Assembly: GCA_963969365.1 (NCBI GenBank)
Contig: OZ017752.1
Coordinates: forward strand, 806,001-870,000
DNA: 64,000 nt
Source of the DNA: Asterochloris sp. CNOR1
Lineage: Eukaryota; Chlorophyta; Trebouxiophyceae; Trebouxiales; Trebouxiaceae
Direction: 5' to 3'
Shown: positions 258 through 62,100 of the stretch, one piece after another
How the letters are laid out: each line of letters opens with the position of its first letter
Numbering within the stretch: position 1 is the stretch's first letter
Made by a program: the position numbers and the translations under genes
Notes under the pieces: generated by a model
Databases searched by the model: none
Told to the model about the DNA's origin: nothing
Seen by the model: only the letters and a program-made list of their open reading frames with translations

Positions 258-1328
258 CTGTCTCTGCTACCAGGGCTGTGCCTCCTGGGCCCAACTGCAC
301 CTGCACAGCTGCATCTGTGAGCCACCAGGGCTGCCAGGGCTCTACCAGGCCGCTCAGCTGCCCGGCAGCCAGGGCGCGGCGGAAGTCCTGAAGTTCTCCA
401 GGGGTCAGGTCTTCCTCTCCAATTGTGACGTCCTCACCTCCAGCCTCCAGCTGCAGGGGCCAGCGCCTTGCAAGTTTGGTGGGGCAGGACACTGGCACTG
501 CTGGCTACCGCATGAGGAAGGGGCGTTGCACGAGACCGCAGGCAGATCTGAGGTACAGAGCAGACACAGCACTAGTTATGTTTGAGGGTGCGCAACAAGT
601 GTGCCTGAATGCTCTAGTACTCCCTCCCTTCGGTCAGCGTCTCACCTGCAGGCGCCACGCTGGTGGCCACAGACTGCACTGCCGCTTATATGAGGTGGCG
701 TGAGGCTCCCTTCAATCAAGGTCTCACCTGCAGGCGCAGCTTCTCAGCAAGGGCAGCCGAGACTTCAAGGTCGTCCACTTCCCCCTCCCCTTCCTCCTCG
801 CCGGCGCCGCTCTGCAGATGCTCAGCCTGAGACCGCGCCTGGGCAGCCAGCACACTGCTGCCGTCTTCTGAGTTTGCATCCACATCCGTCAGCTGCGCCC
901 TCTCTTCAAGCTCCTGGTCATGGATGCGCTTCAGGATCTGCAGCATCCTGTGCCGCTCAGCTGGGTCGGCTTGCGTCTGTTGCAGCTGCTCCACCGCATT
1001 CTCTCTGCAGCAGGGCATATGACTGCATCACTAAAGACACAGCTTCTTGTGGCAGGCTGCCGAGCAAGAGAGGCAGGGTAGACAGCAGGTGATCACCTAT
1101 AGAAGCCCTCTGTGCAGCGCTGGTCGTGCTCTTTGTAGCATGGCAGGGAGCAATAGCGCAGGTTGCAGCGTGGGCAGGTGTACCTGGCCCACTGCTGGTG
1201 GCATCTGCAGTGAAGCAGATCAGCCTCATGAAGTTTGACATCGACGCCAAGGAGGAATGGATGCATTTAGCTTGACTTACACACTGCAGACATCCTTGCC
1301 CTCTCGCTGCATGCTCAGCTGCCTGCAT
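258..1328 (-). CDS. ZNHIT2: ZNHIT2-like HIT zinc-finger protein (3' end beyond window)
   Basis: HIT-type zinc-finger protein of the ZNHIT2 family, known elsewhere as an R2TP/HSP90 cofactor in assembly of snoRNP, spliceosomal and polymerase complexes. Hand-spliced minus-strand exons are 1281-1328, 1097-1191, 728-1004 and 258-450, with phases 0, 2, 0, 1. Exon 1 supplies the first zinc pair (CLQC). Exon 2 continues with ARYTCPRC, RYC, then CYKEH and a final Cys, followed by FYR, the classic zf-HIT ligand order. Exon 3 has ILKRIHDQELEE and an acidic stretch. Exon 4 has the family-typical LVEPWQPWW. The last donor (GTGAGG at 257-252) is open, so the C-terminal half lies left of position 1; bases 1-257 read as intron. 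The start is the ATG at 1328, which gives the CxxC needed for the finger. A copy of the exon 3 donor sits at about 640-662 and is not used in this model. Confidence 0.85.
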
Positions 1329-2560
1329 ACAAATGGCAATAACAACTCAATCTACAGGTGCAACAGGGTAAATAGAAAGATCAAGATTAGGTGGCAAGGT
1401 AGGTCAACTCTGCCACAGCACTCAATCACGGTCGCCCACGGCGGCCAACTCTTGAGTTGCATGCTTGCAGACTTCCAAACAGCACATCATCATATGTTGC
1501 CTCAGAACCCGTATGTCACATGATCTGCAGGCAGCAATGAGGCAGCTCATTGCTGCCTGAGCTTCAGCGCTACTGGATCAGGCTAGAGCACAACACGGTA
1601 GGATGGAAGAGAGCAGGCTGCTCACCAACAGTGACATCCCCAGCAGTGAGGATCCCAGCTGGAGGCAGGATCAAGCAGTGCAGCATCTGTGCTAAGTGTT
1701 CTGCAGTCAGAGCTACAGCCGGCATGTTGTACACCAAACACATGCAGGGATCTGGATCTGAATGTCTACACTTGATTCAGATCAGTGTTCCAACTCAGGA
1801 AGCCTGTTCAGCAGGAGACTTGAAATCTTCATGTTTCATCAGATGCTCTACATGGTCATGGCAGCATGCTGTCAGCTCAGGCGCAGTGGCAGCGCAGGCT
1901 GCCCTATTAGATTGCCCTGCTTCTTCTGACAGTGATGGGGCCACCTCTAACCTGCTGCTGGTGGTGCTATCTCCAACTGCAGCATGAGGATTGATAGTCA
2001 GCCATGGCATGGGCCAGCCAGTTGGGGCTGGTCAGCACAAAGCCACACACCTATTGTTGTGCCTCCAGAGGGCTGCCCTGGGGCAGTGCATCAAGCTCTG
2101 ATAGTGGCAGATGCGAAGCTGCTGGCCCTGGCGCTGGCGCTGGCGCTAGCTCTGGAGCTGCTCCTGATGCAGTTATATGGGCAGTTGACATTGAAATTGG
2201 CTGTGGGCTCGAGACAGGCAGGATGTCAGCCGCCTGTGCAGGCCGGCAGCTGCAGCTGGCAGCGGCGCCTGCCAAACACAGCTCGCAGTCGCAGATGGAT
2301 CCTTGGCTGCAGGCAGAGCTGCAGTTTTCACAAGCTGACTGGCCTCCTAAGATGCTGCCAAGGAGCAGAACCCAGCCAATGAGTGTCCTCATTTCTTCTA
2401 TGACTCTTGGGCCACGAGGTGTCAGCCAGCGCACTACCGGGAGCGTAACGGTCTGGCAACCTGAGGTTTCTTGTGCCAGCTGGCAGCATATCAGAATGGC
2501 TTTGCACAGGACTGATGATGGCAGTGCTGAAGCTTCATTTGTAGAAAAGTTCCGTCAGTC
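1329..2560. other. Intergenic region between ZNHIT2 start and GRP94 stop
   Basis: About 1.2 kb between the start codon of ZNHIT2 and the stop codon of GRP94, both on the minus strand. It should hold the GRP94 3' UTR and the ZNHIT2 promoter. Open frames here have no family-like features and no convincing splice partners. A short array of a GGCGCT-like hexamer lies at about 2127-2150. I see no RNA gene or mobile element. Confidence 0.5.
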
Positions 2561-5500
2561 CTAGAGTTCATCACGGCCTTCAGAGATGGGCTCGCCGTCA
2601 GTGTCATCCTGTTCTGCCTCCGCATCCAATGCCTCTGGCTCCTCATCAGCCTCATCCTGCAGCGAAGCCGGCAGATGAAGCTTTGTTCCAACATGCAGAA
2701 CTTGTGTCATGCAAGAAACCGACACGAGACCATGCATACCTGAGGCTCGTCAGGTTCTGCGGGGACAGAGAGATCCCCTTTGAGATCAAGTGCGTCCTTC
2801 ACTAGGCTGTAAATTCTGCTGTTGAAGGCCTTTGGGTTGTCAATCTGCAAGGCAGGACTGCAGCCATCAGCACTGGACCCTGCCAGTGTGCATATTGATA
2901 ATGCATTGCCAGCATGCACTGCTAGACAGCATCAACAGCTGCTGCCTAAGCAGGTAGCCAGCCCACCTGGAAGCCAGACTCAAGCAGTGCTGTCTCATAC
3001 AACAGCGATGCCAAGGAAGCCGTCGTGGAGCTGTCCTTGTCTGCCTCAAAGCGCTGCTTGACCTCTGTGATGAGAGGGTGGTGGGGGTTGATTTCAAGAA
3101 TCCGCTTGCCCTTCATGTAGGACGCCCTCTCAGCATCGCCTAGAGCCTGCAAACAGGGCCGCAGCTGAATGGACAGCAGTGTTGTTGGCCCTGGCAGTTG
3201 AATTCAAGCACACGTCCTTCTGCTCAGCGTCAAGACGCCACACCTGTCAGCTCCTCCTACGCGAGCCTCTCACCTGACTCCTCATGATGCGCTCCATGTT
3301 TGCGCTCCAGCCATACTTAGAGGTCACCACCACGCAGGGGGTGGTGGACAGGCGTGTGGAGATCTTGACAGACTCAATGTTGGGGTCGCTGACAGCCCCC
3401 TTCCACCAATTGGTCAGCTCCTTGAACATCTCCTGCAGGAGCCGGGCACAGCATGGCATTCAGCAGTGCGGCGATTGCTGCCTGGCAAATGCCTGCTGCT
3501 TTTCTGAGTCGTGCAGCCCACTGTGGATGGCGGGCGAGACCTCACACTACGTGCATGCACAATGCTCAAGCGCCCATTCAGCGCTGACGGCCAAAGTGCA
3601 GGCCTCTGAAGCATTTTCCATGTCAAATCTGAGCCACAGTGCCTTCCATCTGGCTGGCAGCCAGCCGGCCCCCCCTGGACACGCTGCCCCGCCTTGACCT
3701 GAGATGAGCAGTGCAGCAGGCTGCCGGACCACCCACAGAAGCACTGCATGGCAGCCGTGCCATCACAGCCAGCAGCTCCACAAACACGAAGCCAGAACAT
3801 TTGTTCCCCACCTCCCTCTTCCCACCTTGAGCTTCTTGTTCTCCTTCTTGGCATCCTTGTCCCCCAGCTTGAGGTCGTCCTTGCTCGCATTCTGGAACTT
3901 GATGTCCTCAAACTCCAAAAGGTTCTGCATGAGGTACTCGTCCACAGGGTCTGTGAAATAGATGACCTCATAGTCCTTGGCCAGCAGCTGTTCCAGGAAG
4001 GGGCTCTTCTCCAGTTCACGTACTGTCTCTCCTGCAGGTCAACGGTTCAACGTGAGACAACCTTGCTGTGAGACAGCTTGCAGAGCATGTAGCTGTTCCA
4101 GTCTTTCTGGAACTCGAGGCTCTTTTCCAGCTCATGCGCTGTCTTGCCTGCAGTGCGAAGGGTACGTGGACTGGAGACAATGCAGGAAATGAGCTCTGAT
4201 GATGCCACCTTGCACAGTGCAGCTGCCTATTGCATTTCTAAGGGCTGTTCCCACCCACCTGCACTGGCTTGCCTGCAGGTGGATGCTGTGCAAGCAGCTG
4301 CTCTCCTCTAGCTCAATCTCAGAGTCCTGTGGCTATCACCTGACACTGAGGGGGTGTACACAACACAGTTGCTTCAGCAAAGGGGCTCTTGCTGGCTCGC
4401 ACACAAATCAGCAGGCACACAAACTGCACAGGACCTGCAGCTGTGCTCTCCGCAGACTGCAAGGGGAAACAGCAGCCGCACAGTGCAGCACGAACCGCTG
4501 GACCTGATGTACACCATATCAGCGGCAGTCCCTGGGTTTGCTGCCAATGGGGCTCGTTGCGCCCAGCCTGGCAATGCACAAGTGTATGACTTCTTGGCCA
4601 GCAGACAGCAGGGCAAGTGTCTGGCCACTGCAGCAGTGCAGCCTGCCTTTGGGTTGCAGTGTTGACCCTGCGGACACTGACACCCCTGTAGCAGATCATC
4701 CTCTAGCTGAGGCTTCCACACGCGCTGCAGACGCTCCCATCCCCACACAGCCCCTGCCCACCAGCTGGCAATCTGAAGCTTCCCTACCATGCCTTCCATA
4801 GGCCCTGGCCCCTCAGTATTGCCACAGTATCTTTCACTTGCCAAGGCTGTGCTGATGTGGCTCTGAATCACCATCCCTTCCAGCCCATGGCGACCTGCCA
4901 GGCTTAGGCAGAGGCTGGGCTGTGCAGCCTTCATCAACAACTTACCAAACCGCCGCAGTCCCTGTCCCACTCCCACCCTCCACACACCCTCCCTCACCTG
5001 TCCAGGGAAGGGACTGAAATGTTCTGGATTATAGGTGACCCCTCCCTGAGGAGTGCTGCCACAGCAGGACGCCATGCGCAACGCTCAGGGCAGGTGTCTG
5101 CCAGACCTGACGTGTTTCTTAGTCGATCAGCGCACTGCCCCTTGCTGCGCATGGTTCCTCACCTGCCAGGTAGTAGATGTTCTTCTGCCCAGGCTTCATG
5201 CGCTCCACATACTCCTCCAAGGAGATGAGCTTGCCCCCGCTCTTGCTGGTCTGCACGCGCAGAAGCCTGGCCAGGCGGTTGCGGTTCTGGGAGTCCTCAA
5301 TCACGCCCAGCTTCATGGCCTTGCCAAACTGGGCCCAGAAAGTCTGGTACTTGGCTGCAGCCTTGTTGGCCTCCTCGTCAGTGGCTGCAGGGCAACAGCA
5401 GCATTGCTTGGTTGGCATGTCTGGGCAGACACTGAGCAGCAGATGCATAGAGCCCTGGCTGCTCGGACTGCTTGCCTCCTCGTGAGGGGCTACGTGGCAC

Positions 5501-8500
5501 AATTGTCCAATGAAGAGTACACTGATGACGACACAATGGACCCAGGCACAGCAACTGCCATCTGGCCACGCTCATGCAGGTTGTTCCCTGAGGACTTCAG
5601 GTGGCACTGCATGCAACATGTAATGGGAAACTTGGAGCGGCTTGTTCGGCAGTGGCCTGGCTGGCCTCCTTGTTGGGGGCTGCAGGGCAACAACAGCACT
5701 GCTTAAGGGACTCCCTCCTGCTAACTCTAGTGCATGGAGTCCTGGCTGCCCCAAGCATGCAGGCTTTCTGGCCTCCTTGTCACGGGCTGCAGAGCACAGG
5801 TGCCATACTTTGAGGCACACCCCAGCACACATTGCAGGGACACAGTCTGTGGGCCTCCTTGCTGGTGGCAAGGGGCCGAGTGATACTAGACATCACTCCT
5901 TCACACAGACTGTCTGCAGCAAGCAAGCTGTGAGGCACGCTGTTCGGGTATGATTGGCACAACGCAGACAATGAGGCGCGTGCACAAGCCTGGCTGCCTT
6001 AGATTGTTGAGACCCGCAGCACAAGATCAAGAAGCTATGCACATGCTCTCGCTGTGGAGCAGCGCTCGGGGCTCAAGAGCTCATTCAGCCTGTGTTGGCT
6101 TCGTTGCTGACGACAACCACAGCCAGCTTAGACAGGTGCAGCTGACCTTCGCCCTCCTCAGGGTTCCGCACCGCCCTGTCAGCGTCTGACAGCTTCTTGA
6201 GGACGTCCAGCACCTTGCGCACCAGCTTCTTGCGGATGGTTTTTAAGGCTGCGCTCTGCTGCAGGGTCTCGCGTGACACCGACAGGGGCAGCGTGTCAGA
6301 GTCCACAATGCCATGCAGGAAGGCAAGGTACCTGCAGGCCAGGGGCTGGCAAGTGAACAAGGCTGGCAATGTGAGGCTAGGTGCTGAAAATATCTGCAAG
6401 CAGTTGCAGGCTGGACACACTGAAGCTACGCAGGCCACCAGGAGTCTGCAGGGAAGCGCCCTCTAGGACCTCTGGGACTGAGCATGCAGGTGGTGCTGGA
6501 TGTCGTGTCATGCAGCAGACTGTTGGACAGGCTGAGCTCACGGTGGGGCAGGATGAGGCTGCATGCCTACATGTTGATACGTGCCGGTACAGAGCCCATG
6601 GGCATGATCTGGTTGAGCTTGACATCCATGAGCAGAATGACAGCCTGCTTGCGAGTGGGCTCTGTACCGGCACGTATCAACATGTAGGCATGCAGCCTCA
6701 TCCTGCCCCACCGTGAGCTCAGCCTGCCCAACAGTCTGCTGCATGACACGACCTTCAGCACCACCTCCATGCTCAGTCCAATGACAGGGCAAGCAGGCTG
6801 TCATATTGCACAATGCATGCTTTGGCCCAGCTCACAGCTCTGAGCAGCGTTTGCCTCAAGCTGCCCTTCTGGCTGTGGGGCCAGACCTGTTCTGCTTGCA
6901 GTGCCAGCTCACTTGGGCATCAGCTCCTCAAAGTCATCTGAGATGAAAACGCGCCGCACATACAGCCGCAGCTGGGGCTTGGTCTCATAGAAGTTGTTCA
7001 GGAAGTCCATGGGGGCAGTGGGAGGGATGAAGAGCACAGACTTGAACTCTACGTCGCCCTCTGCCTTGAAGTGGGAAAAGGCCAGGGGGTCGGCAGAGCT
7101 CTGCAAGAATGAGTGTCAGTCAGTGCTGCAGGCTGGGGGCTGTCTGCCTGGCATACACACCAGCTGCACCTCTTACAGGTCAGAACGCCCCGTCTATGAC
7201 CTTGACAACAGCAGTCAGCATGTGCGCAGGCTGCCTGCTTCCCTGCAGAGGTGCAGGGATACCACACTCCCATTGCTGACTGAAGCATCAAGTTAGTCAG
7301 GCTCTCCAAACCACATCCCATTTCTGACTGAAGCATCAAATCGCAGTTGGGCTGAGCTTGCCCGGTCCGCCAACAGCGCCAACAGCACCAACTGTAAATG
7401 CATCAGTCTCCCCCGCCATACACGACATGATGCCAAGTGACCCAATAGGTAAGCTTGCCTTGGACACTGCCTTGAAGAACTTGTTGTACTCATCCTCCGA
7501 GACGTCGCTGGGGCTGCGCAGCCAGATAGCCTTGTTATCGTTCAGCAGCTCCCAGTCCCACACGGTCTCCTTCTCTATCTTGGGCGTCTCTGCCTCTTCT
7601 TCCTCAGAGTCTACAGCAAGACAGCACGTTATGCAGCAGCTGGGGCTAGCCCAGAGCTTCGCTGTGTGACGCAAACAAACAGTGCTGTCTTTAGGCTTTC
7701 CACAGATGGCTACCACATGGCTAAGGGCCGCACAGCAGAGGAAGTCAGGATAGCCTGACATGTGATACTATACAACATCAGGAGTGCATGCCTGCCTTGC
7801 CCTTGAAGCTGTAGCATCAGAGGGCATGGCAGCATCGAGATGCTGATGAACTTGCAGCACCATACATCACCAGATTGCAAACTCATCATAAAAGCGGCAG
7901 CACTCTCATTCTTGCGGCTGCACACTGCCTCTGGTCACCTTCATCCACATCCTCCACGTCATCCTCCTCAGAGTTGCTGTCAGTATCAGCAGCTGCATCT
8001 GCATGGCAGGCAAGAGGCAGCTTGAGCCACAATTAGTGTTCACAGCTCTATTGAAACCTGAGCAAAAGCCCCAACACTTTGGCAGCTGACATTCAGCAAG
8101 GATGGGCTCACTCCTGCTGCTGGGGGAGACATGATGCGCTATGGGCACCTCACCTCATCTGCAGGCATCATGTGGCACGCAGGGCCTGCAAGATGCAGCC
8201 CTCAATCTTCTTGCACACAAGGCTGAGTTATTGTGTGGAGTGCAGCACCCACCAGCGGCTTCCCTGGGTGCCTCCTTTCTCCCACCTCCTGGCAGACCTG
8301 CTCAGCGGCAGGCACCCTCAACACAAGCTGTACTGGTACTCTGGGGCATGCAGCACCCACCATCAGCCTCCTGATCTGTCTCCTTGTCGACTTCCTTGCT
8401 GCCCCAGAGGTAGATGGGGAAATTGATGAATTCGCTGTACTTGCCCACCAGCTCCCGCAGCTTGGTCTCGTCTGCGTACTCCTGGGCCTCCTCCTGCATG

Positions 8501-11025
8501 GAATTGACACTGGGGGAGCTCAGTGCAATTCAATGGCAGTGCTACAAATGATATGAGCTGATGCATTAATGTCCTCCCTCTAGCCAGCATGGCAAGACCA
8601 TTGCAGCAGCACTGATGGGCAGCCAGAATTCATGCGCAGAAGGGGCCAGCTCACTATGGGGAGGCCATAGGGCCGCCCTGCCAGGCTGGCTCGCAACAGC
8701 CCACCATGCAGAAGCCGCCAAAACAAGGCAGCAGCAGGTGCAAGGGATAGGCAGTCAACTAGTGCCTACTGGCTGCTGCTGCATCCCCCAGCTGTCCAGC
8801 TCAAGACCCAAAGCATGTCGCGCGATGCTATGGGGGCTTTCCAGCACTGAAGGCAGCCAGCAGGTCCCTGCCACACCCTTCAGGGCCCACCTTGAGGTGG
8901 ATGTTGATCTGTGTGCCCCGGCCCAGTGGCTCGCCGTCTGTGTCCACAGAGATGGCGTAGTCGCCAGACGCCTGCGACTCCCAGATATACCTGCACACAG
9001 AGAAGTCATGAGTTAGCTGCCAGCGCTGACAGCGCTGCTCAAGCACTGCCATCAGCCTGCTGGGTCATTGTCAAGCGACACAGCCTGTCGCTTTCCTGGC
9101 ATGAGCATAGCAGGCCCTGGGCGCCATAGCCCAGCACCAGAACCCCTTTGTGGCAGCACTTTAGCTGGAGTGCACAAGCCAGTGATGGTATGCAAAGGCC
9201 TATTGCCACAAACTCTGGTTGTTTGCAGTGGAAGGATAAGTGTCCAGGGATGTGCATTCATGAAGCCTCAGACTTACTGTTTGTCATCATTGTGCTTGCT
9301 GACCACCTCCACGTAGTCTGCCACCAGGTAGACTGAGTAGAAGCCCACCCCAAATTGTCCGATGAGGTTGACGTCGCCGCCCTTCTGCATCTGCTCCAGG
9401 AATGCTGCAGGTGCCAGCGGCATGGATGAGTAACTACACAAGCAGCAGAGTGCTGGCTGCTTCTTGTCGTTGCAAGGAAGCAGGACACACCGCCCTGCCA
9501 TCACAGATCTCCAGAGCAGCAATGCCTCTGCTGCCAGAGCAGCTGCACGCACCGTCAGCATTGCAAGTTTACTGCGACTCGTTCGAGGGCACCGTTGCCT
9601 CCTTTTGGCAGCAGGTGCTCATGACAGCTGCGCACTTGCAGCTTGAGGTGCGAGACTATGCAAGCGTGCTCAGTCGCTGCCAGTCAATGATCTGCCACCA
9701 GCTCCCATCCTAGCTGCCAGCATCTGCACGACAACGGCGGCATCGGACCTGAGGTACCAGACTTGGCAATGGTGCCCAGGTTGTTCTTGAGGTCCTCACG
9801 AGTCATGCCCACGCCTGTGTCCCGGATGCTGAGGATACGGCGGTCCTTGTCCAGTTTGATGGTTATCTTGAGGTCAGTCTCCTCGCCCTCGCCCAGCTGG
9901 GTCTTATCTGCAGGGCAGGCAGGGGCCTCTATCAGACAAACACCCTTCTGCCGGGGCCAACTGGCAGCCTCTGAGGCTTTGGGCAGCCCCAGGCATGACA
10001 CTAGGCCCTGATGGTACAGATTCAGCTGGAACTTGTCTGCAGGGCCAGCCATAGCGGCCACCAGCAGCTGTGCGCGCCCACCACACATGAGACAGGGCCA
10101 TCAGGTGCAGACTCGGCCGATACTGTTGTGCAGGGCAAACTGGACTCCTTGGGTGTGTTCCTGGCAGTCTCACAGGGAGCGGTGCAGGCCTCAAAGTGAC
10201 ATCAGGCCATTGCAGTGCAGCATTTGCTGAGACTTGTCTGCAGGGGGGGCTGCCATCCCTCAGTGTCTCCATGACAGCCGCTTGGGCACCTGCAGGCCTA
10301 GCTCCTGGAACACTGAATGCAGCCTGGTACAGCAAAGTGACCCTGACCTTGTCAAGCTGCCGGTGCAGCAGGTGCCTCATATGTGTGTGTGAGCAGGCTT
10401 GCCAGCAGGGCTTGCATCTGGTAGCACTATCACTGCCAAGGCACGGACTGCATACTGCAGGCAGCCTGGCGCCAACCTCTAAGGCCCAGCAGCCTGATTT
10501 TGTCCAGGGCATCAGAGGCATTAGAGATGAGCTCCCGCAGGAAGATGTCCCTATTGGAATACAGTGAGTTGATGATGATGTCCATCAGCCTGTTCACCTC
10601 CGCCTGAAACTGAAAGCGCTCTGCCCCGCCTCGGAAGGCATGCCTGCAGGTGCAGCAGTTTGTGAGGGCTCTTCTGGCATCTCAGCAAGTGGGGCCGAGC
10701 TGCAGGGAGGGGGCCGGGTGGATGCTGGGAATTGCAGATGGTGCCGCTCACGGCTGAGCTGCTGTTTGGGAGGTGTCAGTCTCTGTCCTGTGTCCAGTGC
10801 TGATACCCTCATCACCAGGGGAGGGATCCAGAACTTCAGGGATGTCCCCGTCATCTGCGCGACGGCCTGCAATGCCGATCACCACTGTCTCACCCCAGGC
10901 ATCCTTTCAGATTCCAGTCACAATAGATCAGCCAGCAGATCCCCTCTGACCGCCATACCTGGCAAACAGGTCAGCGCCAACAGGAAAACTAACAGCAGGT
11001 ACAGCCATCTGCGCAGAGAACCCAT
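2561..11025 (-). CDS. HSP90B1: Endoplasmin / GRP94, ER-lumenal HSP90
   Basis: ER-lumenal HSP90 chaperone. Seventeen exons join in frame: 10959-11025, 10752-10866, 10477-10643, 9749-9907, 9278-9404, 8891-8990, 8361-8493, 7939-7998, 7459-7610, 6913-7100, 6147-6331, 5163-5384, 3826-4031, 3274-3432, 2967-3146, 2740-2844, 2561-2656; about 806 codons, normal for the family. Exon 1 encodes a signal peptide ([16 protein letters not shown]). The GHKL ATPase domain shows [20 protein letters not shown] and [19 protein letters not shown]. The charged linker is in exons 7-9, then [40 protein letters not shown] and [14 protein letters not shown]. The protein ends RDEL, an ER-retention variant. Exon 8 could start at 7992 instead of 7998. 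The exon 9 donor is GC, not GT. It is divergently paired with BiP, suggesting shared unfolded-protein control. Confidence 0.96.
4085..4290 (-). repeat. Echoes of GRP94 exon 13 start
   Basis: The exon 13 start (plus-strand 3985-4037, containing CAGCTGTTCCAG, GGGCTCTTCTCCAGTTCACG and CTCCTGCAGG) recurs at about 4091-4153 (AGCTGTTCCAG, AGGCTCTTTTCCAGCTCATG, TTGCCTGCAG). A shorter trace is seen near 4266-4279 (TTGCCTGCAGG). Both lie in GRP94 intron 12. Confidence 0.82.
6475..6779. repeat. Intronic inverted repeat, 124-bp arms
   Basis: Arms 6475-6598 and 6656-6779 are reverse complements over 124 bp with 4 mismatches counted by eye, separated by a 57-bp spacer. The repeat lies wholly in GRP94 intron 10 (6332-6912). 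The pre-mRNA could fold into a long, nearly perfect hairpin. No transposase frame, terminal motif or flanking duplication that I can see marks it as a mobile element. Confidence 0.95.
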
Positions 11026-11289: not shown

Positions 11290-18760
<7,471 letters not shown>

Positions 18761-18826
18761 AGTTATCTTGACACTGAGCAGCTCTAGAGTTCAAGGGAGG
18801 GTCATTATTGAAATTCAGCCATTTCA

Positions 18827-32634: not shown

Positions 32635-32727
32635 TGTGGTAGCAGGTTAAGAATGTGGTTGCAATTGAGAGATGTGGTAGCAAGTTGAAAAGATGTGGTA
32701 GCAAGTTGGATGTGGTAGCAAGTTGAT
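32635..32727. repeat. Tandem repeat upstream of kinesin
   Basis: About four to five imperfect copies of a 16-20 bp unit with core ATGTGGTAGCAAGTTG. The array lies between the RING-ARM stop (32740) and the kinesin start (32529), so in the kinesin promoter or 5' UTR. Confidence 0.9.
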
Positions 32728-36906: not shown

Positions 36907-39900
36907 TCAGATCTCAATGAACTTCTGGTTCTCAGGCACAGATATTTTGCCCTTCCCGCTGACAGGCCTGTCCTTGCCCTCTATCTCAGACAAGATTGGG
37001 TCGGTGGCCAGCAGGATGCGCCCCTTGCTGCAGCAGGAACAGCAGCCAGCTTGAGGGTGTAGCCCGACATCTCGGGGGTGAGTTGTGGTCACAGGCCATG
37101 CTCACACATGCTGTTGAAAGGCGCAGCAGCGCTTGTTGCCTTTGTTGGACACAGGGCATACAAATGCTGATGCAGGCAGCCAGGCTGAATGACCACAAGG
37201 AGACGTAAGACATATGGGTGTGTCACATGAGGCGTAGGCAGAAGACTTCAACCTGGCAGCCAGCAGGCTCCTCACCAACAGGAAGGGAGCATGTCTCACC
37301 TGTCTGAGTCCACAATCTCAACGATGTAGAGCCGGGCCAGCGCCCTGTTGGTGTGCTCAGACATCTTGGGGTCTGTCTGGGGCTGCTTGACGTCCATGCC
37401 TTCCTGGCGCTTGATCAGGGTGCACACCCGCAGCTCATTCACCCTGATGGGCAGCTGGGCAGTCTCCACAGCATACTGCAGGGCCGCATGCGACAGTCAG
37501 CATCTTGCTGTTGCACTGCAATGAGCACACAAGTCCACCAAAAGCAGGCAAACCAGAGCCTCGTACATTAGTGCAGAGACCGCATCAACATGCCAGGCTG
37601 GCCCAGTTGGACCAAAAAGAGAGGCTAAACGCCATGGTGCAGAGAAACTGCTTCCTCACAGCAATGCACAACATGCTCTGGATATGCCAGGCAAGTATCA
37701 TGGGGCCCCTTGTGGCAGCGGGTGCGCACAAATTTGCAGCCAACAGCAGCCTGTCCCCCTTGCAGGCAACGCTGCTGGTGGAGGTACACCACATGCGTTT
37801 GCAAGCAGCAGCATCGTAGGGCATGCCTCACCTGCAGGAACATGCCCAGCTGTGCAGAGTTGGATACAGTCATGATGCTGGCCCGGGGGTTCCAGATCTT
37901 GGTACCCACATTGCCGGTGGCTATGGTGTAGCTGCTAGTGTCCTTGGGGAACAGCAGCGGGATAAACACCTTGGCGGCGATGAAGTGCCTGTATGTGCAG
38001 AGGAGCGCTTGACTGTTGGGTAGCTCTTGTGGAGGGCATGGACTGTGCTAGCCAAGGGCAGCCACCTCGGGCCTGCACTCGAAACAGGAAGCCTCGGCAG
38101 CTGGCATGTCAGAGGGGCCTTTTTACGCAGAAAAGGACTGCTGTGACCAGGATGAGTGAGGCTACATGTGCAATAGCAAGCAGGCTCAAGCTCCGTTCCC
38201 AGGCAATCCACACAAAGTAGCCAGACATCAGCTCGTCACTGTGCACAATGCACAGGATACCTTGTGGATTGGTCTGGCCACTAGAGAGGACGGTGACAAC
38301 CAATGTGGAATCTCACCCATTGATCCTCCAGGCCAGCTCAGAGTCAAAGACCTCGATGGGGATCTCCAGCAGCCCTCCTGCAGTCCAGCACACAAGGAGT
38401 GGGTGAGTTCAAGAGCAGGCCACCTCAGAGTCAAAGACCTCGATGGGGATTCCAGCCCTCCTGCATTCCAGCACAGAGGAGTTGTAAGCACAAGGGCAAG
38501 CCAGAGCACCACTGGCAGGGCCAGCATTGCTAACAGCGACACACACATGGGTGCCACTATTAAGGTGGGACCTGTGCAGTCTGCCCCCTCCCCAATCAGG
38601 GCTGCCATGCAATTTACACAGGCGCACCTTCCTCAATCCAGCCGCCCACAGACACAAAGGTATGGTCCACACCTGCAGCCATGGGGGGCTTGCAGTCAGC
38701 CAGCCACGGGCACAGATGTAGGGCTCAGGCTGCCTGCAGCCGGAGGACAGTACTCGTGTGCACTGAATGCGCACACACATACACCTGTGCTCACCTCCAT
38801 GTTCTGCCCGGATCTTCTCCGACAACTCGTGGGCTTCTCCCTTTTCGTGAAGGTTGACAATGGGGATCTGCACTTCTGGAGCATAGTGCAGTGGCTCAGC
38901 AGCCCTCACACTCTAGCTCATGCTGAGCAACTGCGGGTTGCGCAGGCAGCACTGCGTCAGGCGAATGCACATCAATCTGAAGCTGTGCACATAGCTGTGC
39001 ACTGTGGCAATGCCTTGCAGCATTTCTGATGCACATTAAGCCGCCACAGGCCTGCTCACAGTCTCCAAGGCAGCACTGCAGACATAATCCACATCCTGGC
39101 AGGGCTGAACTAACAAACAGCCACATGCACAGCTGCAGGTCCAACAGGCAGCCCAGCAGCAGGTGCCCCGCCAACCCCCCCTCACCACCAGGTTGGAGGT
39201 GTCCAGCCCAGTCATCTCCTTCTCCAGCTTGCCCTGCACTAGCAAGCTGGCTTTAATGCATAATGCCTGCAAGCCAGTGACGCTCATGTCCAGCGATGGG
39301 ATGTGCACCCACTTGCAGCCTGGGGCAGCCTGCGGGGCGGTGCCAGGCAGGCCTGTGCAACACCCTGAGAGGAGTGTCAGGCCCAACAAAGCAAAGGTGG
39401 CACCTCTGATTACATGCAGCTGAAATGTTTTTTCGTGCAAGTGTTCCAGTGATGTGCGCAAGGGCTGGTCTTCGGCAGGCTGACCCGCCCAACTCCACGC
39501 AACTCCACACTCTCACATTCCCACAAGTGCAGCGTGGTACGCAGCATACGGTACGGAAGGCTGTGCAGAAACAGCATGCTGCTGAGGCAGCGCCTGCCCC
39601 CAGGGACTGTCAGCGCTGCAAGCAGTTCTTGTGTGCAAATCCCTAGCAGCGGATGGCAGAATGGCTTCTCAGCTAAGGTGTTTGCCTGACCCATGGTCTC
39701 TCGTTGTGAATGAATGTTGAGGAAGCAGTTGTGTTGAAGGTCACCCAGCACATGAAGGTCATCCAGCACAGACACACTTGCTTCCTTGACGTGCATGTGT
39801 GAGTGAGGCAGTGCCTCACCCGCTCCTCTTCGTTGTAGACGGGCGCGATGACTGCCTTGGCCCCTTCAATCAGCCACTGCCGGGCCACGCCTGCCCCAAA

Positions 39901-46666: not shown

Positions 46667-49600
46667 ATGTGCGGGATGCCCGGCCTGGTGGAGCGGCAAC
46701 AATGCAGCCCTGGCAGCCCTCTGTCTAGCCTGAGCAGCCTGAGCAGCCTGAGCAGCCTGACCCTGACTTCCTCTCTGCCGGAGGAGCTGTTCATCGAGGT
46801 CCTCGGGCGCCTTGACTCGCCTTTTGACATTGCCAGGGCCATCTGCAGCTGCAAGGCCTTTGCCAACATCCAGGATGACATCTGGAAGCTGGCCTGCTGC
46901 AAGCGGTGGCCATCCTGGGCCAAGGTGGCCACCGCGGCCAGCACCAAGTGGAAGCGCCAGTATGAGATTCTGGAGCTGCGGGACAAGGAGCTGCTGGCAG
47001 TGCCATCAGTGCAGGCTATCACCCGGCTGCAGACCTGTGTCACTCCCAAGCACCGCATGGTGCTCACTGAGTGGCTTGCTGAGGTGAGAGATGGTGGGCA
47101 GCTTGATCAAAATATGTGGTGGGTTCACAGGGTTGTCTACAGCATCGCATGGTGTTCCTTTGGAGGGAGACTCTGTCTCTGAGGTCCAGTTACATGATCT
47201 GCAGTTCATGACCCCCACTGTGGCTTGGCATCTGGCCAGCTGCAGCCCCGTGGCCCCCACTCTGAAACGCTGCTGTGCACGACAGCACAGCAGAATGCAA
47301 CTGGGCTTGACAGCAGTACCATGTGCGGCCTGCAGGTCTCCTGGGACTGGTGCCTGGAGTCCACAGTCGTGTTCAAGGCAGTCAGCTACCTGGACCACTA
47401 CCTGGCGTGCAACACCATGCCCCTGCTGTCGAAGTGAGCCAATGAGCACTGCCTGCTGTGCCTGCAGGCGCCAGGCACCTGCATGGTTCTGAGCTGTTGC
47501 CCAGCATCCCTGCTGCCTCCGGCACTCCCCTGCACATGCAGCCTCGCCTGCAATCAGGGTGGATCCTTGACCCTGGTGCCATGATCTCTTCCTGTTGGGC
47601 TGAGCACATATGAGTCAGCCACCGGTGGCGAAGTCTGAAGACCTGTCTCACCGCTGCATGCTGGTGACCATGCTACCTGAACTTGACAAAGCAGTCTCAG
47701 CATCAAAGCAGAAGCCCACCTGCTCCATCATGGAGTAGACAATGCTGTACAGCTAGGGCGCAACAGCGTGCCTCTTCTGTTGTGGTCACTGATCTTGGCC
47801 CAGCACCATGCCTGTGGCTGCCCTGGCCCTTGCACTGTTGGGGTCTGCTGCTGACATGGCACCCCATTGCATATCAGCTGATGTGGCTGCAGCTGTGAGT
47901 CCTGTGCATTTTTGTGGGCAGTTTGTCTGCAACTTGAGAAGCCTGGGCCAAATATTACAGGGCAGGGTCCCATCAGGAAGCTTCATCTCAGCTGAGGTCT
48001 GCTGTGGTCTGTCTGCTGAGCTCCGTTGACGTCAAAGCTGCTGGGGGCATTAAGCTGTCCAGCATCGCTGACAATGCAGCCGCAGCCGAACCCCAGAAAG
48101 TTGATTCTGCTGCAGGTTTGGGCCAGCTGACCACACCAAACACCAATAGCACACTGCCACTTGGCCACATTTACAGCTGCAGCCAGACTGCTTGCTGCTG
48201 CTGCTGCTCAGGTTCCAGCTGCTGGGTATCGCCTGCCTGCGCATCGCCATGGTGGACATGCGAGGAAAGTCACCGGCGCCAGAGACTGAGGTTGCTGAGG
48301 AGGCTGCTGTGGATCAGGACCCCCTGGCCCCTGAGCGCTTTGCCCATGTCAGCGACAGGACCTACACCACAGAGCAGGTGAGCATGAGGGCCTGCATGGG
48401 GCAGCAGCCCGCATCACAGGACCCCTTGTCTTGCCCCAGAGCGCTTGGCCCGTGTTGACAACAGCAGCTTAAGCGCAGAGCAGGTGGGATCCCTGGCCCC
48501 AGTTCTCACAACAAGTCCCTGCCTGTGTCAGCGCAAGACCTGCTCTCCAGAGCAGGCTGGCTTCTCATCCACAGGCCCTCATTGCCAAGCAAGTCATCAT
48601 GCTTGGCTCCTCACGGCAGCAGGTTGCACAAGAGAAGGCCAGGCCCCTAAGCGCTTTGCTCACATCAGTGAACAGACCTACACTGCTGAGCCCGTGAGCA
48701 CTGCACCCATGTACCTCGACGCAGCCTTGTTGTGACTCCTGTGGCCTGCAGCTTGCCCAGCAAGTTCCTCGCTCCTGACCTGCCCAAATGCATGGGGATG
48801 CCGCTGCAGCTCTCGCAGCAGTGCCCTCTTGGTTGCTGCTCAGGCGCTGGGTGGTGAGGATTTGCTGTGCATGTGTAAGGCATGACAGGGCAGCAGCAGT
48901 TGTCATGTTCATGGCTCTTGCTGTAGATGACCTCAGTGCTGAAGTTCGGAGGTCTGCTTTGGCGCAAGGTGAACATGACAGGGCAGGGGATGCCTGAAGG
49001 GGCTCTTCCTGCTGCCTGGCTGCGGCTGCTACACCCTAAGTGTCTGGCTGTTGCAGGTGGAGGTGATGTGGCCAAAGGCTGCCTGAAGCAGCTCTTTGGT
49101 TACCCGGGTCCTGCTGCGTGTGCAGGCTGGAGAAGTGCCTGGCCTGTGCAGGTGGCGGCGGTGGCTTTCCTCAATCTGCAGCTGCACCTGGAGCAGCAGT
49201 GCGTGCTGAAGCTGGACAGCTGAGCTGTGAGTGCCTGGCCTGTGCAGGTGGTGGAGATGACGGGGCAGGTGGAGCTAGGCCTGCAGGACCTGGTGCGGGA
49301 ATGCCCCAACTGCAAGATGTTCCTGCGCAGCCTGTGGTACCGTGCAGGCATTGCAGACGTGCAGGTGGAGGCAGAGATGCACATCTACACCCTGGCCAGG
49401 TCAGTGCGCGGCAGGCTGCTCGCACGAGCTGGCCTGTGTAGCAAGCACACCCACAAGTCCTCAGGAATCGCTGCATTGCTAGAGTGTGTGGCAACAAGGA
49501 CTGCTGAATCTGATGCTGACCCTGCACGCCTACTCTCACTGCTGCGACCAAGATGGCTTCCCGCTGTTCACAGGCGCTGTTCACCCGCATCACATGCTGT

Positions 49601-50414: not shown

Positions 50415-50419
50415 ACTGA

Positions 50420-50836: not shown

Positions 50837-53452
50837 TCAATGTTTCCTGCGCCGCTTCCTGCCTCCCTCAGCTCGAGTGCGCAGCGGCTGCACAGCGTTG
50901 CCTTTGGGTGCCTTTTGATCTGGCTTTGAAGGTAGCTTGTTTTGGCTGCCATCAGATGACCTGTGCTGCCTGGCCAGGGTTGGCACAGGCATCTCTGGCC
51001 TACTCTTGAATACAACTGGGGGCCTGCCTGGGTTGCCTTTGGCGCGGCCAGGCACAGAGGGGGCTGGGCCTGCCTGGCGAGGTTTTGCAGGGAGATGCGA
51101 GCTCATGTGTTTGTTGTTCAGCTGCAGCAGCAGCTGCTTGGCCTTGTTTTGCGCTGCCTGATGGGGCTTGTCCTGCACACATCAGGCTTGGTGGACCACT
51201 GAGCTCGGCGGGCGTGTGGCTCTGGGCTCGTGACTACAGAGCAGCATTGCAAGACATGGTGCTCACCTCTCTGACTGCTGATTGCCGTGCTGATGTGCCA
51301 CGGCCCTCCAGGGTAGCAGCCTTCGCAGTGTTCGCATCCAATGCATCTGACCCAGCTGATGCAAAGAAAGGGTCATCCTCTATCTGGTCCTTCCATCGCG
51401 GAGCGCCAGCATGGCCATCACCAGTGCCCTGTGCAGTGCCTGGAGCTGCTGGTCTGGGAGCCGCAGCTGCCCTACTGGCAAGCTGTGGGCTGCTGAGGTG
51501 TGCACTGCCAGTGGTGCTGCCAGGGCTTCTGGCAACAGAAGCAGGCTTCTGCGGCTGCTTGACCTCCTGATGCCCCTGCTCATCCTCACTTCCATTGGAG
51601 GAGGCGTCCATGTCCACATCCTCGTGCTCGTGTGACTGCATGGCAAAAGGCGTGACTAACACTGCAACTCTGTGAAGGCCGACCTCAAGCTGACACTGAG
51701 GCTGTATCAAGCAGTGCCTGCTGCAGGGCTGCATGCATGCTGTGAGAGGGTACCTGACAGCTCCCGGGACAGTCACACAGCGCGTCCATGGGGCAGGTCG
51801 ACAGGATTGTGCCAGTGTGGCCTACCTCAGCCTGCTTGCGCTTTGCGCCGGATAGAGGTGCGCCAGATGGAGGGGACGTCTGCGGCGGGCTCCGTGCCAG
51901 CGGGGGCTGCCCGCCCAGGGTGCTGCGCCCCTCATCTCCCTGAGTCAGCATGGCCACCTCGGCCAGGTGCTGCTTGACCAGGCCCCGCAGGCGGGCTCGC
52001 TCAGCCTCGAGCTGCTCCTGTGCAGCTGCGTCAGGGGCAGTCTTGAGCAGGCTGACGTACTTCTCGGTGCGGGGAAAGTGCAGGACGTACTGCAGGGGCA
52101 CGGGCATGCATACGTCAGCCACACGGGACCGCAGTGCAGCAGCTGCACCACTGCAGCTGTCCTCCTTATGCTGTCGGAGACTGGCGTGCTATTGGTGCTG
52201 GGGGAGTGCAGAACGTGTTCTGCAGCAGACCCTTCATGTGGGAGCGCTGCAGATGGGGGCAGCGCAGCTCAGTGCAGAACGTGCTGCAGGGGCAGGACAG
52301 GCATGATCCTGGTTTGCAGGGTAATCCCAGTGCAAATGCAGCTGCTGACGTCCTTTAGCAGCTGGGAAGATTCCAGTGTGCAGGTCATACTGCAGAAGCA
52401 GATCGAGCATGTCCTCTGCTGCAGCCCAGTGCATGGCGATCGTGCAGTGCAGGACATGCTGCAGGGGCCTGAGCACCTGCAGGGCACTCCTGGGGACCTA
52501 GCAGCAGGCTGCAGCCTCTGTCCTGGGGCAGATGAGCCAGGCAGATCATGCAACAGCATTCTGCAGTGCCAGCAATCGGCAGCATCAGCAAGGGCTCCAA
52601 GTCGATCCAGGTTGCTGCAGCTGCCAGGACAGGGCACAGCAGCTGCAGGGTCTATCTTGAGGCCTGAACAGCCAGCTAGGTCCTGTAGTGGTGGGCAGGC
52701 CCTGCTGCCCAGGCAGAGATTCGGTGAAGGGCTGCCGTGTGTTCCTGCTTGACACCCTGCACAACGACGCATGCCGCAGAGTCTGGCAGGGGGCCCACCT
52801 GCAGATCCTCCTGCGCCTGGTGCAGCTCGGCAGCCTGCTGCTCAGCGGTCCCTGCACCCCCCGTCTCGATGTGCAGCTGCCGCTGCAGGTGTTTGATGCG
52901 GCGCTCCAGCTTGACGCGCTCAAAGAAGCGGACCTGCACAACGACAGCCGGTCAAGGCACTGTGGCTGAGAGCAGGGCACAGGGCCAGACTGTATGCATA
53001 GCAAGGCAGCCAGAGGGCTTAAAGCCGAGCAGCGCTGCCTGATCCATCACATGGAAACTGACCGGGCGCGTCAGCCAACTTTTGTGACTTGGAGCAGCAG
53101 GCGGCTCAGTGCGCCCACCTTTTGGTAGCGCTGTGCATACTTCTGCCTGCGCTGCTCCTCCTTTTGCTGGGAAACAGCCTTCTGCAGTTGCTCCCGCCTA
53201 GTTTCCAGTCCCTGACGCAGCCTCTTGTCAAGGTGCTCCTGCAGCAAGCCCCCGAGCATCAGCAGCAGCACAAGAGTGATCCCTACAGAGCTCCTGTCTC
53301 ACCTTCCTCAGCAGCCTTTCTACGCCTCTCAACAGAGCTTTAGGGGAGTGCTGCTTCTTAGGCTTGCTGGCTGTGGGGCCTTTCAACGGGTTCCTTCCCT
53401 TACCCTTCGATGGCCTGCCCGGCCTTGCCATGTTGGCTGCCATGCAGTCCAC
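50837..53452 (-). CDS. EFG1: EFG1-like rRNA-processing protein
   Basis: Nucleolar 18S rRNA-processing factor of the EFG1 family. Six exons, nearly all phase 0: 53303-53452, 53119-53238, 52799-52933, 51826-52089, 51267-51635, 50837-51172; 457 aa. The conserved part is residues about 30-175: LLRGVERLLRK, a basic coiled coil (QQKEEQRRQKYAQRYQK), VRFFERVKLERRIKHLQRQL, and YVLHFPRTEKYVSLL, in family order. The C-terminal ~250 residues are low complexity: acidic (SHEHEDVDMDASS), Pro/Ala-rich, then a basic end GGRKRRRKH. This makes it longer than typical fungal EFG1. The start could also be the internal ATG four codons in. Confidence 0.88.
52200..52480 (-). repeat. Four echoes of the EFG1 exon 4 acceptor
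   Basis: The real exon 4 acceptor region reads, on the plus strand, GTGCAGGACGTACTGCAGGG at 52078-52097. Similar segments occur at 52205 (GTGCAGAACGTGTTCTGCAG), 52272 (GTGCAGAACGTGCTGCAGGG), 52378 (GTGCAGGTCATACTGCAGAA) and 52446 (GTGCAGGACATGCTGCAGGG), all inside the intron between exons 3 and 4 (52090-52798). Confidence 0.88.
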
Positions 53453-57369: not shown

Positions 57370-57426
57370 GAGAATATAAAAACCCCCCTGAGAAAGCTGA
57401 CATGCCATGAACTCTCCAAGTGTCAG

Positions 57427-58899: not shown

Positions 58900-58989
58900 G
58901 GGCCTGGCTGCCCATAGCTGTGAATGAACCCTTTTTGAAACTCTCTGCAAATGCATGCTGTACTTGATAGTTTGTTTACACAGTACTTC

Positions 58990-58994
58990 TGTAA
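58990..58994 (+). terminator. Candidate TGTAA polyadenylation signal
   Basis: TGTAA lies 91 nt after the stop of the DUF3172 gene, in the position expected for a chlorophyte polyadenylation signal. Confidence 0.45.
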
Positions 58995-59152
58995 GGAAGG
59001 GTAGCTTGTGACGGGCTGCTCAGCTGATGTCTGGCAAGGCATATGGCACATATGAATGTGTTTGCACTCACGAGTTTGGGCAGACTGCGCATGCATCAGA
59101 CCCTGCAATGGGGTCTGTTGCTGCTGGCAGCTAGGTGGAGCAAAGGCAATTC

Positions 59153-62100
59153 TCAGAAGATAAAGGAGGAGCCCTGACAGAACAGCAGCTGGCAGCATTT
59201 GGGGGCTGTCAGCTGCATCCACCCAAGAATCAGACCAACAGGGCGACAAAGCATCCAGGTCATCCAAACAAAGGTAGTGTCAGACAAGCTGAGGACTTCA
59301 GCTGGTCTCTGCAACAACAACAGCTGAAGCAATAGCGGGGCAATGAATGGTACTTGACAAGCTTGAAGATTGACTGCCTGCAGCCTGCTGACAGCTGCCT
59401 TGATGCTCTTGGAGAGGTCCAATCGCTCTTGAGTCGGGCTGGGACAGCAGTGAAAGAAAGCTGGAAGCACATGCCCCTGCCTGCAGGGCAGCCATGCGGT
59501 CAAGCGAGCAGTACGCCCTTGAGACAGCATGCCTCATGCAGCACTCAGCTGAGGCAGTGCAGGCATCGCTGCCATAGGACCAGTGTACCTCTGCCAGCCC
59601 TCTCCTGACCCACTCCTGGTTGGCGGCCCACGCAGCAGACTGCTGGCCCAGCGCGCTCAGTGCAATCAGGACGGTGGCGCAGCCCACAGTGGATGGCCGG
59701 TGGGCCAGCACTGCAAAGTCTGCAGCACACTGTCAACCTGCTCAGTCCGCTGCAGTCTCACAGGTGAACTGCTTTGCATTGTGAAACTGCAGCATAGTGT
59801 TAACCTGCTCAGCTTGCTGTAGTGTTACAGGTGGCACATGAGGCTTTGCACTGTGGAGCCTGCAGCACAGCGCCAACCTGCTCAGCCTGCTGTTGTGTGG
59901 CAGGTGGCACAGTAGAATTTGCAAGTGGCACAGGTGGCGTCTAAAGCGCTTACCCCAATTCGTTACTCCATTGAGATTGGACACCACGCTTAGTCCAATC
60001 AACAGCTGTACCTCAGGTGGCATATAAAACTGTGCACAGGCACAACCGAGCAGCCTACAACACCAGCAGCCCCCACCCACTCACGCGCCAGGGCGTGTGT
60101 GATGACTGCGTAAGCTTGCTGCCGGACGGTGCTCTTGAGTTGCCATTGCAGATCTCCCAGCGCTGAGGTCTCGAGAAGGAGGGCGTCGACACAGTCTGCA
60201 GCTGTGACTGCGGCAGTGCGCCAGCCCAGCGCTGCCATCAAGGCCAGCTCCATGTCCCTGATCTCGGCAGCAGTGTAGTGGCCCTCCCAGGGCGTTCCAA
60301 CCTGCAGTGTGAGGGCCGACCTCAGCTCTGCAAGTACGTCTGAGGAGAACCTTAGTAGTCTTTCCAGGCCGTTGCAGCCTGCCATGTGGATGCTGATCTT
60401 ACTTTAGCAACCAGGTATGGGTCAGAAGTCAGTGCCCCTCCCAGGTCTTTCCAGCCTGTGACGTGACAGCACACCTCAAGCCAGCCACCAGGTCTATGCA
60501 GTGGTGCAGTGGCCCTCATGGGCCAGTGCACGGACGAGCAGCAAGGTCAGAAGCAGAGCTACAGCCTGTGAATAGAGAGATTGCAGGCATCTATGCAGTG
60601 ACAGGCAGCACATGCAGCAGGTCCCCCTGTCCACCTGCATGTGGAGTGCAGACACGGCTGCAGTGAGCAGCTGCACATGCAGTAGGCGTGGTCCAACCTG
60701 CCTCTAAGTGCAGACAGAGTGCAGTGCGCTCAGCAGCGGCCAGGCTGTGACCATGGGCCAGGGTATGCCTGGCAGCCTTGCAGCCTGCCGCAATGCACCA
60801 TCAGGTGGCAGTTGGCTGACCTGCAGCCACACTGGGCGAATCTGCAGAGCTGCACTCTCCATCTTGGTGGCCACGGACAGGCAGGCAGTGGCAATCAACT
60901 CGGCTGGCCAGCTGGCCCTGCATGGCTGCAAGACAGAAGCAAGCCTGAGGCACACGAAGCAGAGCCCACCGCAAGCAGCATCGCACAGCAACAGCAACGC
61001 CGAGGCAGCACCTGTGCTCACCTGGACAGCGAGGCTCGCCATGAAACGGTCAAACAGGCTGACAGCGAGGAGCAGGGTTGACAGCTTCAGCTGGTGTAGC
61101 TCTGCGACCTGTTCATGAGGAGGAACCAGGTTAGGCTGCAAGCATGTGCAGGCTCCTGACCTCCCCCAACAAGTAGCAGCAGCAGCTGCCGCGGGTTGGC
61201 CTGCTTTGGTTGCAGGCAGGCAGTCCTTGCAGCGGGTGCAGTGATGCTGCACAGGCAGGCTCCCGCCTGGTCCGCCAGAGCCCTGTCAGCAGCGCCTTAC
61301 CATGCGCATCCAGAGCACCACCAGCTGCCGGGCGACTGCACCAGTGTGTCAGCAGCACCTCACCATGCGCATCCAGAGCACCATCAGCTGCCGGGCGGAT
61401 GCATTGGACGTGTGCTGGTGGCTGCCCTCCTGCTGTGTGCAGGTCTCTTTGTGCAGCAGGTGCTCCAGATCAGAGCCCCACTGCCCATATGCATCCACCT
61501 GCAGGCACACGGTGCACCGTGAGTGCCTGAGACCGCACCACCACTCAGGGGCTGCACTCTGCGGGCTGAGCTGTTCCCGATCTGCATCTCCACATGTTGA
61601 TATCCTAAGTTCATGGGAGTCAAGGGTTTGGCGGTGTCCTGTTGAGCAGGTGCCACATCTGTTGCTGCAGCACCTTACCTGCAGGCCCAACTAGCCCTGC
61701 CGTGCGCCACTTGAGGACATTGCTCAGGGTGATAGAGATAAAGTCGGGCGCAAGGTGGCCAAACCCCCAGTGTCTGCACTCATGCCCCACCTCTGGCCGC
61801 AGATGCAACCGACAGCCCGTCTACATTCTGCAGAGAGCAGCCCCAGTGGCCCAGGGCCCAGGCCCCCGGCTCCTGCACATGTCTGGCTCTGGGCACAGCG
61901 AGGGCTCCCCTCAGCGCTCTGACCACCAGCAGGTTGAGAACAGAGGGGCGGTTGTTGGGGTGGTGGGAGCCAGCAGGGGACAGCAGACGCAGGAAACGTT
62001 GCAGCATTGTCGACACCCAGCGAGAGGATGTGCTAGCTCAAGTGGTCTGCCTGTCCCACAAGGCAGGGCTGTGAGTGTTGCTGGACACGCACAGGGGTGC

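Follow-up and report, generated by a model that had tools for sequence, protein, structure and literature searches.

Many introns of the green alga Asterochloris sp. CNOR1 carry degraded copies of the exon edge that adjoins them, and these splice-site echoes look like decayed ordinary short tandem duplications. The copies were first noticed in a preliminary description of a 64-kb window (the entire stretch of DNA described there), and we extended the analysis to four further stretches of 50 kb each from elsewhere in the 56.4-Mb genome. A recognisable copy of an own exon edge occurs in 57 of the 638 introns predicted in this sample (9%), corresponding to 58 echo edges. Introns and edges were predicted by a self-trained gene finder, which printed 708 introns; relative to the 638 used in the edge tests, 66 of the difference come from adjoining introns separated only by an empty exon, which were merged into one for these tests.

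First, each of 958 edges was compared with its own intron and with 20 mismatched introns (19,160 mismatched pairs). At a score of at least 26, 65 edges had a copy in their own intron versus 3.5 expected from mismatched intron–exon pairs, with corresponding values of 117 versus 27.8 at a score of at least 22, 38 versus 0.5 at 30 or more, and 29 versus none of the 19,160 mismatched pairs at 34 or more. The window alone gave 14 of 240 edges at a score of at least 26 (1.2 expected), and held-out Hsp70-family loci gave 5 of 133 edges with a copy (0.05 expected). Reverse-complemented edges (5 of 958) and dinucleotide shuffles (0.3–0.5%) stayed at the mismatched level at score 26, and edges matched the remaining introns of their gene no more often than in the controls, also for neighbours no farther than 0.8 kb away (2,142 comparisons). 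The echoes thus exceed both shuffled and mismatched pairs, the comparison that the preliminary description had named as one that could refute it.

Second, an annotation-free orientation test counted BLASTN pairs lying 50–600 bp apart in the window and the four 50-kb stretches, and found 83 same-strand and no inverted pairs at 35 bits or more, and 118 and 5, respectively, at 30 bits or more. Beyond 800 bp the two orientations were similar (146 direct and 131 inverted at 30 bits; 11 and 5 at 35 bits). Stretches aligning to their own reverse complement were excluded from the inverted count, because each arm is scored twice there; the window has 10 such self-alignments at 30 bits or more, at distances below 100 and nearly all at distance 0, of which only 6475-6779 is strong. 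Echo copies are in direct orientation and mostly less than 600 bp from their source. As originally claimed, they are real, local and same-strand, and, with mismatched introns at chance, no shared family is seen.

Third, 26 window edges chosen by hand, mostly from the original list or because they had been hit before, were re-tested with 500 randomly drawn intron segments as the control (minimum possible p 0.002), and the originally listed exon numbers were matched to edges by position; 16 of the 26 reached p 0.002 (Table 1). Eight genes are thus well supported, where the preliminary description spoke of at least nine. At ZNHIT2, a longer pair joins 624-655 with 706-737. At BiP donor 18073, the blocks 18063-18092 with 18150-18179 and 18107-18152 with 18207-18254 are read here as one tandem duplication that was probably broken by an indel. 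The EFG1 source lies 31–65 nt inside acceptor 52142. The described near-whole exon copy in the SDR gene proved to be a near-complete tandem duplication, whose source segment takes in acceptor 38377 along with the greater part of the short exon. Cyclin acceptor 59719 was marginal in the re-test (p 0.05), yet lies within a tandem array. Weaker results came from F-box cyclin donor 47083 (p 0.018) and ZNHIT2 acceptor 450 (p 0.022), and GRP94 acceptor 9404 was not significant against the 500 random segments (p 0.16). No match at score 20 was found for BiP acceptors 11826 and 12211, either of which could be the listed 'exon 2', for GRP94 acceptor 8990, the probable 'exon 4', or for FCF1 donor 35450, EFG1 donor 51826 and EFG1 acceptor 51635.

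Table 1. Copies of exon edges and neighbouring sequence in the window, with identities and re-test p values
Feature	Position of copy	Strand	Remarks
ZNHIT2, copy of donor edge 727/728	639..655	-	In intron 451-727; 17/17, p 0.002
GRP94, copy of acceptor edge 4031	4118..4153	-	Upstream intron; 29/36, p 0.002
GRP94, copy of acceptor edge 5384	5655..5704	-	Intron 5385-6146; p 0.002
GRP94, second copy of acceptor edge 5384	5758..5799	-	p 0.002
GRP94, third, weaker copy of acceptor edge 5384	5474-5499		p 0.020
GRP94, copy of donor edge 9749	9644..9673	-	Score only 25; 23/30, p 0.002
GRP94, copy of acceptor edge 10036	10197..10245	-	39/46, p 0.002
BiP, copy of acceptor edge 15602	15512..15536	+	21/25, p 0.002
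BiP, copy of donor edge 15805	15929..15980	+	Spacing 163 nt; 43/52, p 0.002
BiP, copy of donor edge 17383	17521..17550	+	26/30, p 0.002
BiP, copy of donor edge 18073 and following intron	18150..18254	+	Two collinear blocks; edge p 0.002
FCF1, copy of donor edge 35913	35957..35975	+	17/19, p 0.002
SDR, near-complete tandem duplication of 38329-38422	38416..38503	-	Unit 87 nt; 58/60, p 0.002
F-box cyclin, donor-side exon end 48377, copy 1 of 3	48417..48486	+	p 0.002
F-box cyclin, donor-side exon end 48377, copy 2 of 3	48520..48556	+	30/37, p 0.002
F-box cyclin, donor-side exon end 48377, copy 3 of 3	48639..48700	+	50/61, p 0.002
F-box cyclin, copy of acceptor edge 49248	49134..49158	+	p 0.002
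EFG1, copy of exon sequence 52077-52111	52271..52304	-	Adjacent intron; p 0.002
Cyclin, decayed tandem array from acceptor 59719	59720..59923	-	Period 67-73 nt, about 2.7 copies
Cyclin, copy of acceptor-side exon end 60301	60423..60458	-	p 0.002
Cyclin, further copies of acceptor-side exon end 60301	60353-60388, 60498-60517		p of the three copies 0.002, 0.002, 0.004
Cyclin, tandem copy of donor edge 61364	61284..61340	-	Unit 63 nt, 91% identical; 50/55, p 0.002

The echoes are probably what is left of short tandem duplications, arranged head to tail with units mostly of 50–200 nt and located anywhere in genes. Roughly half of the strong pairs have a tandem-like geometry: 16 of 81 are near-complete tandems (block at least 75% of the spacing, or abutting), and similarity continues beyond the block at p ≤0.05 in 27 of the remaining 65, compared with about 3 predicted by base shuffles. 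In the edge set, anchored extension exceeds the control on both flanks. Pair spacing has a median of 135 nt. The pair lists at score 32 are not free of chance matches (545 direct and 38 inverted raw query hits), and pairs are partly non-independent, several deriving from one array. In the edge set, the block-to-spacing ratio has a median of about 0.3 whatever the identity level, a value that stems partly from limiting the query to 80 exonic and 40 intronic nt, whereas simulated tandem duplications with modest indels keep 0.84–1.0, or 0.75 if all are old; for many pairs, copies inserted at a distance or extensive indels in the introns must therefore have played a part.

A tandem unit covering one splice site would leave the protein unchanged if the spliceosome, as we infer, continues to splice at the outer copy, meaning the first donor or the last acceptor, and the inner copy turns into intron. 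The intron would gain about one unit together with a second splice site, and the exon-derived part of the copy would decay, free of coding constraint, with the conserved true exon as the reference by which old copies stay detectable. Exon edges would look like a special source because that conserved exon keeps old copies recognisable. The mutational step is presumably replication slippage, unequal exchange or end-joining.

Short local copies would also result if an intron break were patched with a nearby short stretch, inserted away from its template. In many pairs, short blocks that match well are separated by unrelated sequence, and 38 of the 81 strong pairs have no significant similarity beyond the short block. 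Repair duplications in passages of Pace et al. 2009 (PMC2671141) are likewise proximal in vertebrates, with a mean of 162 bp, and place short local copies of splice sites and exons in introns. However, the same passages describe an inserted exon copy in the opposite orientation, whereas no inverted pair at 35 bits accompanies the 83 direct ones here, and 43 of the 81 strong pairs either form a near-complete tandem or resemble each other in the flanks as tandem copies do. Repair would be expected to leave microhomology or filler at the breakpoints, which decay has blurred in these copies. We consider repair-mediated copying a rather unlikely explanation.

Young copies are too scarce for tandem duplication at a constant rate. 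Among the 85 pairs with at least 35 aligned nt, only 5 are 90% identical or more, compared with about 30% in a constant-rate simulation, and the suggestion that the process is active is thus unsupported. The share of introns with an echo also varies among stretches (chi-square p 8e-4), between 4 of 119 in the poorest and 20 of 111 in the richest, which counts against a uniform process. One unlikely reading is that a past, regionally clustered wave of 50–200-bp tandem duplications set much of present intron length, with selection retaining copied 3′ splice sites as a buffer or as alternative acceptors.

The preliminary description saw each intron as copying its own edge, and a dedicated process might preferentially copy splice-site regions, for example through pre-mRNA or the splicing machinery. 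Edge-spanning blocks are indeed in 1.4-fold excess (62 versus 44.7 expected, sd 5.2; reached by 0 of 500 random placements), an excess that exon conservation can explain. The AG of copied acceptors is kept in 19 of 21 cases (p 0.003 versus other AGs); selection keeping it was considered and rejected, as neutral decay simulated under identical filters yields 0.71 by itself and leaves p 0.034, a weak hint at most that the copies may serve as decoy sites. Against edge copying, 45 of the 142 pairs that are not wholly coding (0.32) join intron to intron, and randomly placed 50–260-bp tandem duplications under neutral decay approximately reproduce this share in simulation (0.38 with uniform ages, 0.27 with old ones only), so a special edge-copying process is unneeded. 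Moreover, eight of nine boundary-ending donor copies do not continue into the next exon, the ninth only abuts it, and three acceptor cases were negative; no spliced-RNA template is therefore seen. Copying of exon edges as such is very improbable.

It is hardly credible that the echoes are alternative or mutually exclusive exons born of exon duplication: the SDR copy does include an acceptor and the larger part of its short exon, and 22 of 26 copied acceptors with an intact AG do not fall below the 5th percentile of scores for real acceptors, but codon positions 1 and 2 have diverged nearly like position 3 (identities 0.84, 0.84 and 0.78 in aggregate; single copies may differ) and multiples of three are not favoured among the spacings (34, 52 and 56 pairs with remainders 0, 1 and 2). 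The copies as a group are non-coding, in aggregate not the conserved in-frame exons that the preliminary description had named as its refutation, and some retain splice sites that score like real ones. Our own gene finder called echoes as extra exons in GRP94 and BiP, which we judged false from their translations.

As was also proposed, echoes accompany longer introns. Echo introns have a median of 349 nt (n=57) versus 197 nt without an echo (n=581, including 58 untestable introns shorter than 80 nt); among testable introns of at least 80 nt the medians are 349 and 212 nt (n=523 without an echo; p 1e-8), and the difference of about 140 nt is close to one duplication unit. The related idea of intron gain by splice-site duplication fared less well: the Rogers-type signature of a new intron was rare and not clearly enriched at a score of at least 24, with the intron end copying the upstream exon end in 3 of 512 (0.6 expected) and the intron start copying the downstream exon start in 2 of 512 (0.3 expected). 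A comparison of intron starts with intron ends is disregarded, because its best hits stem from introns so short (less than 80 nt) that the two windows of 40 nt share sequence. Single introns, for example C2 8412-8500, may be Rogers-type candidates.

Short local copies have reportedly been called 'doublets' by Thomas et al. in 2004, a term that Pace et al. cite beside repair-mediated proximal duplication, and Messer and Arndt are said to have described short insertions as tandem duplications in 2007. The short insertions in passages of PMC2374710 are likewise local, direct, same-strand copies, but the units here measure about 50–200 nt, are mostly old and stand out because the exons are conserved. 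In intron gain by tandem duplication (potato RdRp, PMC4974935; review, PMC3443670), duplication also yields extra splice sites and, in the potato case, also crosses an intron–exon boundary; here, by contrast, existing introns appear lengthened, the copies lie inside the adjacent intron and the new-intron signature is nearly absent. Introners and introner-like elements of algae and fungi (PMC9860276, PMC4457414) similarly derive intronic sequence from copying, but no shared family is found here: cross-locus similarity is at chance, and three echo stretches searched in the 56.4 Mb matched only themselves (the search skips very common words), so an introner family was rejected. Among the titles and abstract openings of the matches listed, there was no report of an own-edge echo pattern in a green alga.

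Echoes call for caution in annotation, where they can be miscalled as exons, as in GRP94 and BiP. Existing introns can lengthen without transposons, and tandem duplications would both lengthen introns and leave spare splice sites. Comparing introns with conserved exon edges recovers decayed duplications, and intron growth could therefore be measured across genomes; if the reading of a past wave were true, exon edges would be a clock dating intron growth, intron by intron.

Exon edges match their own introns far more often than they match other introns, bearing out the suggestion of the preliminary description that introns here contain degraded copies, or echoes, of the boundaries that limit them. 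Each edge was compared with its own intron and with 20 mismatched introns; of the 958 edges, the excess of own-intron matches made up 9.3% at score 22 (6.9–12.1% as the 95% range from a gene bootstrap) and, at score 26, 6.4%. The excess is present in all target-length classes and greatest in the longest, 300–400 nt, where 38/230 edges matched against 1.15 expected. At least one echo edge was found at score 30 in 27/48 genes, and in held-out Hsp70-family loci 5 of the 133 edges reached score 26, where 0.05 were expected. Annotation-free pairs 50–600 bp apart in the window and four 50-kb comparison stretches numbered 83 on the same strand versus 0 inverted at 35 bits, and 118 versus 5 at 30 bits.

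The comparison stretches lie one each on contigs C1–C4, all at 1.00–1.05 Mb, in a genome of 56.38 Mb and 21 contigs with GC near 58% and dense introns; these traits fit the lichen alga Asterochloris glomerata, for which the available part of the published account gives 56 Mb, 56–62% GC in 98% of the genome and 9 introns per gene (PMC6652019). A self-trained hidden-Markov gene finder predicted the 48 genes across this sample, with a clean splice consensus (CAG/GTGAGC and CTGCAG/G). In its models some neighbours were fused and some echoes taken as exons. The edge tests used 638 predicted introns, back-to-back introns having first been joined, and intron bounds were set by hand for the re-test of picked window edges. 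Five of the ten window models were compared with Pfam, and all five matched (cyclin/F-box, SDR, Fcf1, Efg1 and cyclin families); BiP exons matched HSP70, one match stopping exactly at donor 17383; the names GRP94 and ZNHIT2 rest on reading of translations. Echo-bearing introns per stretch ranged from 4/119 to 20/111, the richest stretch being that on C3 (1,000,001–1,050,000; loci L019–L023); the next richest gave 13/120.

At score ≥30, 68 edge alignments span 15–98 nt at 70–100% identity and a distance of 31–280 nt. Setting aside the ten that are purely intronic, 24 of 28 acceptor blocks cross the edge and 19 contain at least 10 intronic nt, and donor blocks are exon-only in 16 of 30. We infer that this difference follows constraint, the constrained stretch being longer at the intron end than at the intron start. 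Serial copies occur in introns of the F-box cyclin (three, edge 48377), cyclin (at least three, ~70 nt between them, edge 60301) and GRP94 (two strong and one weak, edge 5384).

Among strong pairs (score ≥38, not wholly coding; n = 81), 16 abut or fill at least 75% of their spacing, and in 27 of the other 65 the block is adjoined by further similarity at p up to 0.05; tandem-duplication behaviour is thus seen in 43/81, and the other 38 show neither feature at these thresholds. We also simulated duplications of the observed spacing placed randomly on these genes, dropping exon-internal and multi-boundary ones and letting the remainder decay. The intron-only share was 0.38 with uniform ages and 0.27 with old duplications only, close to the observed 45/142 (0.32), so this share does not require edge targeting. 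Edge-spanning blocks are 1.4 times commoner than under random placement, and the simulation retains longer blocks than observed; either introns undergo many indels, or some pairs are spaced copies made during repair.

Other repeats and structures of the window are tabulated below. The hairpin was read as lying in a GRP94 intron, although the gene finder makes 6571–6738 an exon; possible identities are an inverted duplication of recent date and a long precursor of small RNAs. The gene holding the in-frame repeats encodes alanine/glycine/phenylalanine-rich repeats and is nucleoporin-like by eye.

Repeats, structures and extra predicted exons in the window
Positions	Feature	Details
5632–5679	Extra gene-finder exon	At or beside an echo
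5821–5913	Extra gene-finder exon	At or beside an echo
6475–6779	Near-perfect long hairpin	Arms ~120 nt, loop ~50 nt (read from fold); −280.9 kcal/mol, z −30; one locus only in genome
18149–18160	Extra gene-finder exon	At or beside an echo
32635–32726	Intronic short tandem array	19-nt units
42706–42788	Intronic short tandem array	25-nt units
48468–48483	Extra gene-finder exon	At or beside an echo
54680–54957	Imperfect in-frame tandem repeats	39 and 51 nt, within predicted coding exon
62501–62580	Intronic short tandem array	20-nt units

The echo record is mostly old: identity reaches 90% in only 5 of 85 pairs with at least 35 aligned nt, against a constant-rate expectation of about 30% (1262/4156, simulation). 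Introns with an echo have a median of 349 nt, versus 197 for all others and 212 for others of at least 80 nt, a difference similar to the median copy spacing of 135. This link is an association, from which we infer intron growth by duplication.

In the parts available of the sources, precedents include a boundary-crossing tandem duplication in the potato RdRp gene (PMC4974935), intron gain through tandem duplication in Drosophila (PMC2891723) and in review (PMC3443670), a fly and primate survey in which most short insertions are tandem duplications (PMC2374710), local repair duplications in vertebrates that include splice sites (PMC2671141) and introner surveys (PMC9860276, PMC4457414); the available parts of PMC12712428 and PMC3488318 added nothing on precedents. 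The outcome here differs from the cited cases in that existing introns apparently grow, at many loci.

Divergence of the copies is near-even over codon positions in aggregate, so the group as a whole does not consist of alternative exons conserved in frame, a reading that the preliminary description named as a possible refutation. AG is intact in 26/28 aligned copies and GT in 10/12, and 22/26 and 8/10 of these, respectively, reach at least the 5th percentile of the scores of real sites. The sign of selection keeping copied acceptors is weak. From their translations, we judge the four extra exons that the gene finder made at or beside window echoes to be false, and echoes are therefore a likely source of annotation errors.
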